Assembly: GCA_001798885.1 (NCBI GenBank)
Contig: MGQW01000001.1
Coordinates: 1-32,046 of the forward strand
Length of the DNA stretch: 32,046 bases
Reading direction: 5' to 3'
Source of the DNA: Deltaproteobacteria bacterium RBG_16_64_85
GTDB taxonomy: Bacteria > Desulfobacterota > Deferrimicrobia > Deferrimicrobiales > Deferrimicrobiaceae
Part shown: positions 13,103-19,133 of the stretch, in pieces
Layout: each line of letters starts with the position of its first letter
How positions within the stretch are numbered: the first letter of the stretch is position 1
Translations under genes and position numbers: made by a program
The notes under the pieces: model-generated
What the model was told of the DNA's origin: nothing
Database searches by the model: none
Seen by the model: the letters and a program-made list of their open reading frames with translations, nothing else

Positions 13103-13131
13103 CGCTTGCCCCCGGAAAGCGGCTATACAGA

Positions 13132-13137
13132 ATTATA
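13132..13137 (-). promoter_or_regulatory. -10 element for dksA
   Basis: TATAAT on the minus strand, about 30 bp upstream of the dksA start. No convincing -35 hexamer stands at 16-18 bp. The -10 lies inside the loop of a long imperfect inverted repeat (CCCCCGGAAAG at 13109-13119 with CTTTCGGGGG at 13147-13156). Confidence 0.4.
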
Positions 13138-13172
13138 ATCTATCTTCTTTCGGGGGAGGGTGCAAAGCCTGT

Positions 13173-13925
13173 CTACCGGAGGTGGAACCGGACCGGAACC
13201 TCGAACCAGCCGGGTGTGGACGGGAGCGGAGCGGCGCGGACGACGCCGCTGCGGGCGGCCTCGTCGAGCGCCCTGGCGCCGCTGCTGCGGGCCACGCGGA
13301 TCTCCTTCGGGATTCCCTCTTCGCCGACGCGGATGCGCAGGAGCACCTCCCCCTCCTGTCCGAGGCGGATCGCCTCCTCCGGGTAGGCGATGCGGGACTC
13401 GATCCGCTCCCGCAGGAGGCGGATCTCCGCCCCTTCCCGCCCGCCGCTCCCCCCGCCCGCGGTGCCGCCAGACGGAAGGACGGCAAGCATCCTCCCGCTT
13501 CCGGGATCTTTCGCATCCCGCGGCGAGGTCTCGTGCGCTCTTCCAGCCGCCCCGGCGGGCGCCGGAACCGGCGCCTCTCCGCCCGGCCGCATGACAACGC
13601 CGGGGGATTGCGGCGCCGGACCTTCCGGAGATGGATCCCGGATCACCGCCAACGAGGGCGCGGCCGGGAGGCCCTCCGTCGCCGGGCGGATCCCCTGCCT
13701 CCGCGGTTTGTCCGCGGGGGGGGCGGTGAGGTCTTTTTCTCCCGCGGAAACAGCGTTCGTGGTCCCATCGATGAGGACGACTTGGGCTACGCCGGGGAGA
13801 TTCGGGCTCGTAGACCCGCCCCAAATGAGGAAGCATGCCAGAAACGCAAGATGTCCCGCCGCCGAACCGATGAGCGGCCGTCCGATCCCGGCCGCCCCAC
13901 CGCCCGTTTCCCGCCCTGCCCGCAT
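13173..13925 (-). CDS. tonB: TonB-family energy transducer
   Basis: A 250-residue periplasm-spanning protein. It has one N-terminal membrane helix (about 21-37), a long Pro/Ala/Gly-rich linker and a C-terminal TonB domain (about 170-250: RIAYPEEAIRLGQEGEVLLR, then GARALDEAA and a FEVPVRFHLR end). It would pass proton-motive energy from ExbB/ExbD to outer-membrane receptors. It lies 36 bp behind the BtuB-like receptor with AAAGGGGG before ATG 13925, so it is most likely the dedicated TonB of that cobalamin receptor. No exbB/exbD are nearby. The linker has a poorly conserved, low-complexity composition. Confidence 0.88.
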   Translation of the reverse strand: MRAGRETGGGAAGIGRPLIGSAAGHLAFLACFLIWGGSTSPNLPGVAQVVLIDGTTNAVSAGEKDLTAPPADKPRRQGIRPATEGLPAAPSLAVIRDPSPEGPAPQSPGVVMRPGGEAPVPAPAGAAGRAHETSPRDAKDPGSGRMLAVLPSGGTAGGGSGGREGAEIRLLRERIESRIAYPEEAIRLGQEGEVLLRIRVGEEGIPKEIRVARSSGARALDEAARSGVVRAAPLPSTPGWFEVPVRFHLR

Positions 13926-13961
13926 CGACGCTTCGACCCCCTTTCGATGGGCTCCGCCCCG

Positions 13962-15866
13962 TCAGATTTTCAACTCGGCGCCCAGGAGGAAGTTGATCCC
14001 CGGGGCGGGGAACTCGATCCGCTCCTCGTATTTCCGGTTCAGAAGGTTCTGGATCTTGCCGAAGAGCGCAATCTCATGGACGTCGGCGCCGGTGACCTCC
14101 CGGCGGTACTTGGAGTAGACGTCCACGCGCGCGTAGCCGGGGCGCCGGGTGGCGGCGCCGTTCAGGGGAACGTCGACCTGATCGCTCTCGACGAGCCAGT
14201 CCGCCCTCGCCTGGAACGACGGAGCCGGGGACAGGAGCAGCGTCGTCATCGCCCGGTGCCTGGGAATTCCGATGATGCGTTTTCCGCCGGCCCCGTCCCA
14301 GGTGTTCGAGTAAGTGTACGAAAACGCCGCTTCCGCCTGCGGCGCGACGAGGAACGATGCCTCCGCCTCGACCCCCCGCGAGAAGGCACGGCCCTTGTTC
14401 CGCAGCTGCCCGAAGCCGAGCGGCCCGGGAACCGTGGAGTCGAACTGGATCAGGTCGCGGAACGCCTGGTAGAACCAGGTCCCCGAAAGCTTCCCCCGCT
14501 TGCCGGCGAACGCAATGTCCGAGCCCGCCTCGTACGAGACCACCACCTCGGGAGAAAGCGCAGGGTTCCCCACGAAGACGTCCTGTTTCTCCGAGATCGT
14601 CGGGACGCGGAAGCCGCGCCCCACGGTCCCTCGTACCCTCATCCCGCCGGCCCCGAACTCCCGGTAGATCGCCGCTTTCGGGTTGAACTGCGTCCCCGCC
14701 TCCGAGTTCCTGTCCAGTCGGGCCCCGAGGCTGATGCCCGTGTGCTTCCACGGCCGTAACTCCTCCTGGACGAAGACCGAACGGTTGAAGGTCGAGGAAG
14801 CGAGGTCGGTGTCGCCGAAGCCCGAACGGAAGGCATCGGTGGCGCGGTCCTTCTCGTACTCCACCCCGAGGAACGTGGTGGAGATGGGGCCGGGGGCGAA
14901 ACGCCCCTCGAGGCGGAAATCCATCTTTCGCGTCTTGGTGACGTCATCGAACACGAAGGGGAAGGCCTCTCCCGGGTCCCCCGGGTCCTTCTCGTTGAAA
15001 AATTCGTCGAACACCATGCCGGACGACGAGATCGTCACCGTCTTCGAGACGGCCGCCTCCCACCGCGCACCGGTCATAAAGCTCCGCCGGTTCAGCCGGT
15101 GGTTGATATCCCTGGGCGTCCCGAAATCGATGGGGATCCCTTTCTCCTGGTCCGTGGAAAGCACGATCGCATGCAGCCGGTTTCGGCTGCCCACCGCGGC
15201 CTCGCCGGTCCCCAGGAGGGAAACCAGGGAGGTGTCGTCATTGGGGAGGGTGCCGTCGCTCCGCCATCCTCCGGCCCCCAGGTGGAGGTTTCCGTCCTTA
15301 CCGGCCCCCTGCGCGAACGCGGTTCCCCTGACGGAGTTGAAACTCCCACCGGCAATCCCCAGCCCGTACTGCCGCCCCTCTTCTCCTTTCCGCGGGATGA
15401 AGTTCACCACTCCCCCCATCGCGCCGGAGCCGTAAAGGGCGCTTTGCGCGCCGCGGACCACCTCCACGCGCTCGAAATCGTCCACCGGCAGCGAGCCGAT
15501 ATCGAACGAGCCGAGCGTGGGGCTGTTGACGGGAAAGCCGTCGATCATCACCAGGGTGTGCGCCGCCAGGCCTCCGCGGATCTTGATGTTTTCGCGGTTG
15601 CCCGGGCTCCCGCTCCGCTGGACGTCCACGCCGGGAATTCCCCTCAGGACGTCTCCCGCGACCGCGGGGGTTTTCAGCTCGATGTCCTCGCGCGTCACCA
15701 CGCTTACCGACGACGCCTGCTCCGACGCCTTTTGCTCGATGCGCGTCGCGGTGACCACGATCGGCTCCAGCTTCGTCGCTTCCTGCGCGAATGCGGCCCC
15801 CCACAATCCCGCCACAAAGCACAGCGACCCGACACCCTTCCTCCATCCCGACTTCATTCCGACCAT
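13962..15866 (-). CDS. btuB: TonB-dependent outer-membrane receptor, probable vitamin B12 receptor
   Basis: A 634-residue receptor with a signal peptide (1-27, AFA|QEA) and a TonB box EPIVVTATR (34-42). The plug domain (about 46-158) includes IKIRGG, VMIDGFPVN and VEVVRGAQSALYGSGAMGGVVNF. A beta-barrel makes up the rest. Assignment to cobalamin rests on the B12 riboswitch directly upstream and on btuFCD in front; the fold alone would not distinguish B12 from siderophores. ATG 15866 is preferred over 15857 because GGAGGG ends 4 bases before it. The last residue is Ile rather than the aromatic residue usual for barrel proteins, a minor oddity. tonB follows at 36 bp. Confidence 0.9.
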   Translation of the reverse strand: MVGMKSGWRKGVGSLCFVAGLWGAAFAQEATKLEPIVVTATRIEQKASEQASSVSVVTREDIELKTPAVAGDVLRGIPGVDVQRSGSPGNRENIKIRGGLAAHTLVMIDGFPVNSPTLGSFDIGSLPVDDFERVEVVRGAQSALYGSGAMGGVVNFIPRKGEEGRQYGLGIAGGSFNSVRGTAFAQGAGKDGNLHLGAGGWRSDGTLPNDDTSLVSLLGTGEAAVGSRNRLHAIVLSTDQEKGIPIDFGTPRDINHRLNRRSFMTGARWEAAVSKTVTISSSGMVFDEFFNEKDPGDPGEAFPFVFDDVTKTRKMDFRLEGRFAPGPISTTFLGVEYEKDRATDAFRSGFGDTDLASSTFNRSVFVQEELRPWKHTGISLGARLDRNSEAGTQFNPKAAIYREFGAGGMRVRGTVGRGFRVPTISEKQDVFVGNPALSPEVVVSYEAGSDIAFAGKRGKLSGTWFYQAFRDLIQFDSTVPGPLGFGQLRNKGRAFSRGVEAEASFLVAPQAEAAFSYTYSNTWDGAGGKRIIGIPRHRAMTTLLLSPAPSFQARADWLVESDQVDVPLNGAATRRPGYARVDVYSKYRREVTGADVHEIALFGKIQNLLNRKYEERIEFPAPGINFLLGAELKI

Positions 15867-15909
15867 TTTTCCCTCCTCTCCCTCGAAAGGGGCGTTTTGG
15901 ATATCGAGC

Positions 15910-16058
15910 GGCCCGGGTCTTCTGGCTTCCGGCCTCCTACTCCCCGCGCCTTCCCGGGGGGAAATTCCCTCCCCCAGTGGCGATGCCGCGGGTTTCGTTC
16001 CGGTCACAGATGCGGGGCAGCGACGGATTCCCACCGCCTTCCCCGGTTTCCGCCCTAT
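15910..16058 (-). ncRNA. Cobalamin riboswitch upstream of btuB
   Basis: Read on the minus strand, the conserved B12-box segments appear in order: AAGGCGGTGGGAATCC, GCTGCCCCGC followed by CTGTGACCGG, GCCACTGG, GGGAAGGCGCGGGG and GAAGCCAGAAGACC. The 5' end coincides with the btuD stop codon (16055-16057), so this element sits inside the operon. No intrinsic terminator with a U-tract is seen between it and btuB. A small CCCT-UUCG-AGGG hairpin lies just before the Shine-Dalgarno, so control is more likely at translation initiation. High cobalamin would be expected to repress btuB. Confidence 0.9.
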
Positions 16059-16846
16059 GTCGTACTCCTCAGCGGAGTCACGCGGACCGCTCCCGTTGCC
16101 GGGTTGCGGTCGCACGTCACCGCCACGCCGTATGCCTCCCAAACGTTTTCCGGGGTCAAAACCTCCTCCGGCTTCCCCGACGCCATCACCCGGCCGGCCG
16201 AGAGGAGGACGATCCGCTCCCCGTATTCGGCGCACAGCGACAGGTCGTGCGAGGCGACCAGGGCGCTGATGCCGCACTCCTCTTTCAGGCGCGTCACGAC
16301 TTCGTAGAAGGCAACCCTGTGGTAAATGTCGAGAAACGCCGTCGGCTCGTCCAGCAGCATCACCTTCGCCCCCTGGCAGATCGCCCGGGCGACCGCGGCC
16401 CTCTGGCGCTCGCCCGCCGAGATCTCCCCCAGGCCACGCCTGCGCAATTCCATGAGCCCGGTCATCGCCAGCGCGCGCTCCAGCTGCTCCCGGTCTTCCG
16501 CGGTTGACCCGCCGAAGAACCCCTGGTGCGGAAACCGCCCGAGCGCCACGTACTCTTCCATGGCCATGGGGAAGTCAACGGGAAGATCCTGTCCCACGAC
16601 GGACAGCATTCGCGCCATCTCCCTGCGGCCGTAGGAGGTCGGCGGGCGCCCCAGCAGGGACACTTCTCCCGAATGGGGAGGCAAAAGCCCCGAAAAGATT
16701 TTCAGGAGCGTGCTCTTCCCCACGCCGTTGGGCCCCAGTAGGATGACCACCTCTCCATCCCCCATCTCCAGGTCCACGCCGGCAAGAACCTCCTGTTCCC
16801 GGTAACGGAAGCGGACTTCCCTGGCGGAAAGGAGCGCGGCGCTCAA
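16055..16846 (-). CDS. btuD: Vitamin B12 ABC transporter ATPase
   Basis: A 263-residue ABC ATPase with Walker A GPNGVGKST (38-46), a Q-loop at VVGQD, signature ISAGERQ (142-148), Walker B VMLLDEP (162-168) and H-loop His200. It powers the BtuC permease. The start is read as TTG at 16846. It overlaps the btuC stop as TTGA, has GGGGGAAAGG just upstream, and gives a complete first beta-strand. The first ATG (giving MGDGEV) would cut into the nucleotide-binding fold. The C-terminal 40 residues after the ABC core are typical for FecE/BtuD types. The stop codon abuts the second cobalamin riboswitch. Confidence 0.9.
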   Translation of the reverse strand: MSAALLSAREVRFRYREQEVLAGVDLEMGDGEVVILLGPNGVGKSTLLKIFSGLLPPHSGEVSLLGRPPTSYGRREMARMLSVVGQDLPVDFPMAMEEYVALGRFPHQGFFGGSTAEDREQLERALAMTGLMELRRRGLGEISAGERQRAAVARAICQGAKVMLLDEPTAFLDIYHRVAFYEVVTRLKEECGISALVASHDLSLCAEYGERIVLLSAGRVMASGKPEEVLTPENVWEAYGVAVTCDRNPATGAVRVTPLRSTT

Positions 16847-17850
16847 GCCTTTCCCCCGTTGCGGCGCAGAAGGTACAGGAAAAACGGCGCCCCCGACAGA
16901 GCGGTGACCGCCCCCACCGGCAGCTCGCCGGACGGGCTCACCGTCCTCGCAGCGATGTCCGCAAGGATCAGGAACGTCCCTCCCAGGAGGAACGCGGCGG
17001 GGACCAGCCGCCGGTGACCTGAGCCGACAAGAACCCTTGCACCGTGCGGGACGATCAGCCCCACGAAGCCGATCAGGCCGGAGACCGCCACCACGGACCC
17101 CGCCAGCAGCGACGCCGTGACGTAGGTGGCGGCCTTCACCTTTTCCACGGGAAGCCCGGCCTGAAACGCGGCGTCGTCGCCCAGCAGCATCAGGTCGAGG
17201 CCGCGGGAAAGGAGGAACAGGACCGCCGTCCCGCCGGCGACGTAGGGGAGGAGCATGCCGACACGCCGCGGGGTGCCGAGCCCCAGGTCCCCCATCAGCC
17301 AGTAGACGGCTCCGGGGATTCTCCCCGGAGGGGCAAGCGCCACCATGAGCATGATGAGGGCGTTCAGGAACGCGCCCACGATCACCCCCATGAGAATGAG
17401 CCGCTCGCGCGACACCCCGCTGCGGCGCCGGGCCAGCAGGAACACGGCGGAGGCGGCGATCACGGCGCCGAGGAACGCGCAGAAGGGCAAGGGGAGGAAG
17501 GCGTCGCCCGGCAACAGAAGCGCGGCGCAGAGCGCCCCCACCGCCGCGCCGGCCGAAACGCCCAGGATGTAGGGGTCGGCCAGCGGGTTGCGGAGCAGCG
17601 CCTGGAACGCCACCCCGGAGGAGGAGAGCGCCCCGCCCACGAGGCACCCCAGCAGCGCCCGCGGGAGCCTGAGCGAAAGGACGATCCGCTCCGCGGTCTC
17701 CGCCGCCGGAGTCCACGCGGCGCCCCGGCCCGCCAGGGCGTCGAGGACCTGCCGGGGGGAGACGTCGGCGGGCCCGGTGGCCAGCGACAGGACGATCGCG
17801 GCGAGAGCGGCCGCCCCCAGCGCGGCGATGACGGAGCCTGCGCGCCTCAT
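16843..17850 (-). CDS. btuC: Vitamin B12 ABC transporter permease (FecCD family)
   Basis: A 335-residue inner-membrane protein with about ten hydrophobic segments. FecCD-family landmarks are LRLPRALLGCLVGGALSSSG, LLRNPLADPYILGVSAGA and GLIGFVGLIVPHGAR, the last being the coupling region to the ATPase. It forms the channel that receives cobalamin from BtuF. ATG 17850 overlaps the btuF stop (ATGA). The permease family also serves siderophores and heme, so the B12 assignment comes from the riboswitches and neighbours. Confidence 0.92.
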   Translation of the reverse strand: MRRAGSVIAALGAAALAAIVLSLATGPADVSPRQVLDALAGRGAAWTPAAETAERIVLSLRLPRALLGCLVGGALSSSGVAFQALLRNPLADPYILGVSAGAAVGALCAALLLPGDAFLPLPFCAFLGAVIAASAVFLLARRRSGVSRERLILMGVIVGAFLNALIMLMVALAPPGRIPGAVYWLMGDLGLGTPRRVGMLLPYVAGGTAVLFLLSRGLDLMLLGDDAAFQAGLPVEKVKAATYVTASLLAGSVVAVSGLIGFVGLIVPHGARVLVGSGHRRLVPAAFLLGGTFLILADIAARTVSPSGELPVGAVTALSGAPFFLYLLRRNGGKA

Positions 17851-18773
17851 CGTTTTCCCCGGTCCTCTCCTGCCGCCGCGGCGCGATGGCGTTTCCGCCA
17901 GGCATCGAGAACCCGTGACACCTCCTCCAGGGCCGTGACCATCCGGGGCCCTGGCCGTGTTACCAGGTCGCCGTCGAGGGAAACAACTTCCCCGTCCCGG
18001 AAGGCGGGAATCTCCCTCCAGCGGGTCACCTCCCGGGAGAATTTTTCGACCCCCGCCATGGCCGCAATGAAGACGATGTCGGGCTTTCCCGCCAGCAGGT
18101 TTTCGGCGGTCAACCTGGGATACCTCCCGGAAAACGGCGAGGCGGCGTTTTTCCCTCCCGCAAGGCGCAAGAGCTCGTCCATGAAGGTCCCCTTCCCCGC
18201 CGCGATGATCGGCGAGGTCGAGACCGCGAAAAGCACGCTCGGGACGGGATTCACGACTTTTCTTGCAGCCCGGTCCGCGCGGCCCCGCAAGACGTCTGCT
18301 TCCCGCCGTGCGTCGTCCGGGACGCCCAGAAGCGCCCCGATCCGCTCAATGGCCGCGTAGATTCCGGAGAGGTCCTGCGGTGCCACCGCGAAACACGGGA
18401 TCCCCATCTCCTCGAGGGCCCGAACCTTCTCCTTGGGGTTGCCGTCCGTCGTGCACAGGACGAGATCCGGTGCAGCCGCAACGATCCTCTCGATGTCCGG
18501 GTCGGCGATTCCCCCGACTTTCGGCAGCTCCTTCGCCGGCGGCGGGTAATTGCAGTACCGGGTGACACCGACGAGCCTCTTCTCTTGTCCAAGGAGGAAG
18601 ACCATCTCGGTAAGACTTGGGGCAAGGGAGATCACACGGCGGGGCGCGGAGGACAATCTCACGGCAACGCCGCGATCGTCCTTCATCTCGATGGGGAAGG
18701 CGGCACGCGCAGAGGAGACGAGGACCAGGTGAGCCAGCAGGACAACCGCGAAAGTGCCTGGAATCCGACGCAA
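17847..18773 (-). CDS. btuF: Vitamin B12 ABC transporter substrate-binding protein
   Basis: A 308-residue periplasmic binding protein of the BtuF/FecB class. It has a signal peptide (about 1-24, ending SSARA) and class III binding-protein motifs RRVISLAPSLTEMVFLLG, VGGIADPDIERIVAAAPDLVL and PDIVFIAAMAG. The start is TTG at 18773 (TTG CGT CGG, giving MRRIPG). No in-frame ATG or GTG before the hydrophobic core would preserve the signal peptide. The TTG lies only 7 bases after the 3' arm of an intrinsic terminator, whose G-run is the only candidate ribosome-binding sequence. It is the first gene of the cobalamin operon, with the stop overlapping btuC by 4 bp. Confidence 0.88.
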   Translation of the reverse strand: MRRIPGTFAVVLLAHLVLVSSARAAFPIEMKDDRGVAVRLSSAPRRVISLAPSLTEMVFLLGQEKRLVGVTRYCNYPPPAKELPKVGGIADPDIERIVAAAPDLVLCTTDGNPKEKVRALEEMGIPCFAVAPQDLSGIYAAIERIGALLGVPDDARREADVLRGRADRAARKVVNPVPSVLFAVSTSPIIAAGKGTFMDELLRLAGGKNAASPFSGRYPRLTAENLLAGKPDIVFIAAMAGVEKFSREVTRWREIPAFRDGEVVSLDGDLVTRPGPRMVTALEEVSRVLDAWRKRHRAAAAGEDRGKR

Positions 18774-18821
18774 AAGAAAACCCCCCAGCCTCTTCTCCTT
18801 CTCAGGAGAAAGGTTGGGGGG
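18773..18821 (-). terminator. Rho-independent terminator in the btuF leader (riboswitch expression platform)
   Basis: On the minus strand, CCCCCCAACCT (18811-18821) pairs with AGGCTGGGGGG (18781-18791) with one mismatch. The stem continues inward as TTCTCC/GGAGAA around a TGAGAA loop. TTTTCTTTTG follows immediately. This is a strong intrinsic terminator placed between the riboswitch and the btuF TTG codon, fitting cobalamin-induced premature termination. The same 3' arm may also hide the ribosome-binding site. Confidence 0.85.
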
Positions 18822-18883
18822 AAAGAGGTGTCACGCGCTTTACCGTCCCGACCCTTCGCCCGCGAAAGGTGTTCCGGGAAAAT

Positions 18884-19050
18884 CCCTGTCGGGCCGGTCT
18901 CCTGGCTTCCGGTTCGAGCCTACTCTCCGCGCCTTCCCTGGGGGTCCATCCCCGGTGGCCTATTCGCGGATTTCGTCGCCGGTTACAGTTGCGGGGCAGC
19001 GATGGATTTTCACCATCTTCCCTTGACGCCCATCCTGGGCGCCCGACGGG
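18884..19050 (-). ncRNA. Cobalamin riboswitch upstream of btuFCD
   Basis: Minus-strand B12-box segments in order: AAGATGGTGAAAATCC, GCTGCCCCGC followed by AACTGTAACCGG, GGCCACCGG, GGGAAGGCGCGG and GAAGCCAGGAGACC. The closing stem P1 can be drawn between CCCGTCGGGC (19041-19050) and GCCCGACAGGG (18884-18894). It is followed about 60 nt later by the terminator in front of btuF. The 18774-19133 stretch has no other gene: it holds this riboswitch, a linker with a small CCTTTCG/CGAAGGG hairpin, and the terminator. Confidence 0.93.
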
Positions 19051-19133
19051 AACTTCCGATTTGTGCTTTCATTCTGCCGGGCGCGGCGGGAACAGTCAAG
19101 CCCGGCGGTTCCCTCAACAGCCCGGCGGTTCCC

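Follow-up and report, generated by a model that had tools for sequence, protein, structure and literature searches.

We analysed a 32,046-nucleotide stretch (the window) of contig MGQW01000001.1 from Deltaproteobacteria bacterium RBG_16_64_85. On its minus strand lie, in this order, a cobalamin riboswitch (RS1), a terminator, btuF-btuC-btuD, a second cobalamin riboswitch (RS2), btuB and tonB (Table 1). A sequence-only reading had proposed the same order on one strand, and the Rfam and Pfam/NCBIfam assignments agree with it; the interval it gave, 13173-19050, covers the operon but clips the first 11 nt of RS1. The covariance-model search by which the riboswitch ends were to be fixed placed RS1 and the core of RS2 as listed in Table 1, with both scores well above the RF00174 gathering threshold of 31.5 bits. 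RS1 and RS2 are the two RF00174 matches of the whole 2.2-Mb genome, a search of which found no third. The best NCBIfam match of btuB is the 'TonB-dependent vitamin B12 receptor' family, TIGR01779, under that family's cut-off. The stop codon of btuF and the start codon of btuC overlap (ATGA, 17850-17847). Beyond tonB, a TATAAT-like box upstream of dksA (minus strand, 13130-13140) suggests a separate dksA promoter, and the order btu operon-dksA-galT-glgA is kept across much of the family.

Table 1. Features of the btu operon, in window coordinates.
Feature	Position	Strand	Evidence
Candidate operon promoter, TTGACT-N17-CAGAAT	19071..19099	-	pattern scan
RS1, cobalamin aptamer RF00174, full length including P1 and P2	18875..19061	-	cmscan 100.8 bits, E 2.4e-24, model 1-189
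RS1 L5 region GCUGCCCCGCAACUGU, C-rich loop	18985..19000	-	in every family RS1 at a btu operon; role by homology (PMC10653944)
RS1 P13 hairpin, split stem CCCG/CGGG + CCUUUC/GAAGG, L13 CGGG	18847..18878	-	motif in relatives
RS1 intrinsic terminator, stem 18821-18781 then U-tract	18771..18821	-	fold, -29.8 kcal/mol
btuF, periplasmic B12-binding protein, UUG start	17847..18773	-	PF01497 5e-30
btuC, FecCD-type permease	16843..17850	-	PF01032 1e-93; best NCBIfam matches BtuC
btuD, ABC ATPase, start approximate	16055..16846	-	PF00005 6e-31; best NCBIfam match corrinoid ABC transporter ATPase
RS2, cobalamin aptamer, without P2	15906..16055 (core 16044-15915)	-	cmscan core 83.1 bits, E 2.9e-19; P1 strands in relatives
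RS2 expression platform, P13 CCCCUUUC[GAGG]GAGAGGAGG, btuB SD in 3' strand	15871..15892	-	motif in family RS2 leaders
btuB, TonB-dependent B12 receptor, ATG start	13962..15866	-	PF00593/PF07715; TIGR01779 1.3e-62, below cut-off
tonB-like gene, TonB C-terminal domain	13173..13925	-	PF03544 8e-14; TIGR01352 above cut-off

We compared the locus with those of 23 relatives from the same family. Both riboswitches were found in 12 of them, that is, in 13 genomes from 8 genera when the window's genome is included; the layout RS1-btuFCD-RS2-btuB lies on a single contig in 9 family genomes and is split between contigs in 4 more. Both RS1 and RS2 look like ordinary cobalamin aptamers by sequence, and their cores are about 79% identical. 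The RS1 cores cluster in a single clade to the exclusion of RS2 (support 0.987), indicating that the two switches are old and that each has been kept as an ortholog of its own. RS2 is absent from some relatives, among them G001 (same genus as the window organism), G003 and G007, and in G013 the gap between btuD and btuB is too short for it. In G001 (L032:3548-3620) short P1-like and platform-like remnants, GGCGGACCGG and GGGGAGGGAGAGGAGGGG, are left between btuD and btuB, as if the RS2 aptamer had recently been deleted. The RS2 of G006 (L038:5281-5446) carries a G-rich insertion at the position of the C-rich L5 and just reaches the Rfam cut-off; it may be decaying. G018 (L048:7314-7837) has a direct tandem of two cobalamin riboswitches, spaced by about 160 nt, ahead of a TonB-dependent receptor that is diverged (28% identical to BtuB), with the dksA-galT-glgA block nearby in the opposite orientation.

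The promoter-like element of RS1 ends 10 nt upstream of the aptamer, and such an element (8-9 of 12 matches) is found directly upstream of RS1 in 15 of 16 family loci. The P13 hairpin was recovered in each of the 13 leaders examined, and by analogy with characterised riboswitches the C-rich L5 of RS1 is expected to kiss L13. The strong intrinsic terminator that had been read after RS1 is borne out: a hairpin of -29.8 kcal/mol is followed by UUUUCUUUU, and hairpins of -20 kcal/mol or lower before a U-tract occur in 13 of 15 family RS1 leaders, where dinucleotide shuffling predicts 2.2. A simple terminator pattern scan missed this terminator, the stem of which is bulged, so that silence of such a scan does not mean absence. 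P13 and the terminator stem are two separate hairpins. In the window, the 3' side of P13 and the 5' arm of the terminator gave the best pairing of 223 11-mers. Over 13 family loci, however, this putative antiterminator pairing was on average no better than that with shuffled arms (-10.9 versus -10.8 kcal/mol).

The reading frame of btuF opens at a UUG directly after the U-tract of the terminator. All 15 family RS1 leaders have this UUG in the btuF frame, and in the 13 that have the terminator it sits 6-8 nt past the terminator G-run; if the loci are independent, the probability of an in-frame UUG at 13 terminator loci by chance is about (1/3)^13. The run GGGGGG in the 3' arm of the terminator is predicted to be fully paired (unpaired probability about 0) and is the sole Shine-Dalgarno (SD)-like sequence at that distance from the UUG in the window. 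From its sequence and position it is likely to be the SD of btuF, although a weak one. Dual expression platforms are recognised by a terminator no more than 10 nt from the start codon (PMC2258182), and RS1 fits this distance rule at 13 of 13 loci. Because the UUG and the likely SD of btuF sit at the 3' arm of the terminator, RS1 is probably not purely transcriptional, having instead a dual terminator/ribosome-binding-site output.

P1 of RS2 is formed by GGGCGG (16055-16050) and CCGCUC (15911-15906), and the stem opens with the final G of the TAG that stops btuD (16057-16055). A ribosome terminating at this codon would thus sit on the first aptamer strand (16057-16050). A longer P1 reaching into btuD (GAGCGGUCC/GGGCCGCUC), taken from the minimum free energy fold, was discarded, as what relatives conserve is GGGCGG/CCGCCC, immediately before the core. 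CCCCUUUCGAGGGAGAGGAGGGAAAAAUG forms the end of the leader, and all 13 family RS2 leaders carry the platform motif CCC(U)UUCGAGGG..AGGAG upstream of the ATG, which can also be written CCCUUUCGAGGG..AGGAGG. In the P13 of RS2, CCUUUC pairs with GARAGG, the latter including the first part of the SD. Its loop GAGG(G) can, by analogy, face the C-rich L5, as does L13 in characterised cobalamin riboswitches (PMC10653944). A reading with GGUGNNAAUCC as the L5 loop and UUUCG as L13, which made both switches look activating, was dropped, since PMC10653944 gives a C-rich L5 and CGGGA as L13. An alternative hairpin, CCC-UUUCGA-GGG, is possible, and the isolated SD hairpin P13 is more stable than it in 13 of 13 leaders. 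RS2 probably blocks translation of btuB.

RS2 was said to show no terminator and to end by the ribosome-binding site of btuB, and the family agrees on both counts. From RS2 into early btuB, 12 of 13 family loci, including the window, lack any compact, stable hairpin followed by a U-tract, and the thirteenth gave a single marginal call of -10.0 kcal/mol. These results bear on the possibility that RS2, too, is transcriptional, through a terminator, hidden or Rho-dependent, within its leader or beyond it; the two switches would then share one mechanism. A shut btuB start could leave untranslated RNA open to Rho; nevertheless, given the dearth of such terminator hairpins, we regard a transcriptional RS2 as improbable. 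The proposal that the two riboswitches use different output mechanisms thus stands in that the terminator belongs to RS1 only and the SD hairpin to RS2 only, both being conserved; it needs amending in that RS1 is probably dual.

A further reading would divide the locus into two transcription units, with a btuB-tonB promoter inside btuD and RS2 as the leader of a separate transcript. In its favour, 50-110 nt lie between btuD and RS2 in some relatives, and a precedent exists in Bacteroides thetaiotaomicron, whose uptake operon 1 contains an internal promoter and a further riboswitch ahead of btuB1 (PMC12751083). However, the best promoter-like element near RS2 in the 13 family loci has only 5-7 of 12 matches, while RS1 has one nearly everywhere, and in the window P1 of RS2 begins within the btuD stop codon. 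Two units are therefore unlikely, if slightly less so than a transcriptional RS2. One transcript, as originally proposed, is supported by the same two observations, a conserved promoter before RS1 only and the start of RS2 in the stop codon.

All in all, the locus is quite probably an uptake operon that B12 represses through two gates in series, both for the same ligand and on one transcript. Here we infer that adenosylcobalamin is bound, that it represses, that transcription runs on from btuD into RS2, and which strands act as switching partners. At high B12, RS1 would permit the terminator hairpin to form, stopping transcription of the whole operon; on any transcript that escaped termination, this hairpin would conceal the ribosome-binding site of btuF. 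RS2 would close the P13 hairpin holding the btuB SD, so that mRNA that had escaped RS1 would yield little BtuB receptor. btuFCD would then be under one gate acting at two levels (RS1) and btuB under two gates. With RS1 already gating the whole operon, RS2 would be a second gate on btuB and not an independent control. The sequence-only reading also supposed that inner- and outer-membrane uptake could be tuned at different B12 levels, which is a speculative step, as sequence does not reveal affinity. More tentatively, and with somewhat less than even confidence, we propose that this recurring two-gate operon, with a dual terminator/ribosome-binding-site RS1 on the inner-membrane transporter and a translational RS2 on the receptor, sets an unequal BtuB:BtuFCD ratio as B12 rises, with the receptor shut tighter.

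The direction of control could in principle be the opposite, one or both switches activating with B12, like the cobT riboswitch of Alkalihalobacillus halodurans, the one activating corrinoid riboswitch known (PMC10653944). In pairing tests on the 13 family loci the OFF states of RS1 and RS2 were visible and the ON states were not seen: the antiterminator pairing is no better than with shuffled arms, and the SD hairpin of RS2 is more stable than its alternative. Yet the P13 of A. halodurans cobT overlaps its terminator (PMC10653944), whereas here the two are separate hairpins, and according to PMC10653944 all other known corrinoid riboswitches repress. We thus consider activation very unlikely, far more so than either of the other alternatives, and retain repression by B12.

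The closest relative of RS1 in the literature is the repressing, transcriptional metE riboswitch of Priestia megaterium (PMC10653944), which shares the split P13 stem with an internal loop, the CGGG L13, the C-rich L5 and a downstream terminator. They differ in that the P. megaterium antiterminator was proven by mutation (PMC10653944), while that of RS1 is putative, and in that the RS1 terminator also abuts a start codon. In the latter respect RS1 is no different in principle from the dual terminator/RBS platforms of Barrick and Breaker 2007 (PMC2258182). RS2 resembles E. coli btuB and env8HyCbl, where P13 and a ribosome-binding-site hairpin shut translation of the next gene; those, however, are single leaders, whereas RS2 lies inside an operon and has the SD within P13 itself.

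As in the SAM-II/SAM-V bi-mechanism tandems (PMC9481103), one ligand would be sensed twice, at transcription and then at translation. RS1 and RS2 have the anatomy of such a pair, and a single transcript and ligand would complete the likeness. The SAM tandems, though, combine two aptamer classes in one leader (PMC9481103), whereas here there is one aptamer class and the switches do not share a 5' leader before one gene, as btuF, btuC and btuD intervene. Operon 1 of B. thetaiotaomicron likewise begins with a riboswitch and has another ahead of btuB1, but its internal promoter is active and termination has been proposed for its riboswitches (PMC12751083). The combination of the RS1 and RS2 designs was not found described in the open-licence literature searched. 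Because the layout is conserved in relatives, we regard it as real, but of a mostly familiar kind of regulation.

We also searched more widely, with a model built from 21 aptamers and a comparison of genes, and with taxon names as in the database records. The arrangement riboswitch-btuFCD-riboswitch-btuB occurs in several Nitrospira metagenome-assembled genomes (MAGs), one Syntrophaceae MAG, one Acidobacteria MAG and another genome of the same phylum. Five Nitrospira-type loci repeat the split between the two switches, with a terminator of -19 to -21 kcal/mol at RS1 and none at RS2.

As to the supply of B12, a few protein-family searches, short of a full pathway reconstruction, found neither CbiG nor CobS in the genome, and the CobQ/CobB-type glutamine amidotransferase family gave no match over the cut-off. 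The genome does encode proteins with B12-binding domains and a MetE-type match. Since CbiG and CobS were not found, uptake is probably the sole source of B12 for this organism.

The operon would be a natural case of two copies of one aptamer class acting at different levels within a single operon. What a second gate on a single late gene adds could be measured against the relatives that lack RS2 (G001, G003 and G007). Our results also suggest that same-class bi-mechanism control may be commoner in B12 uptake than single-leader surveys show, since a survey of this kind covers riboswitches with a common leader and passes over those located within operons.
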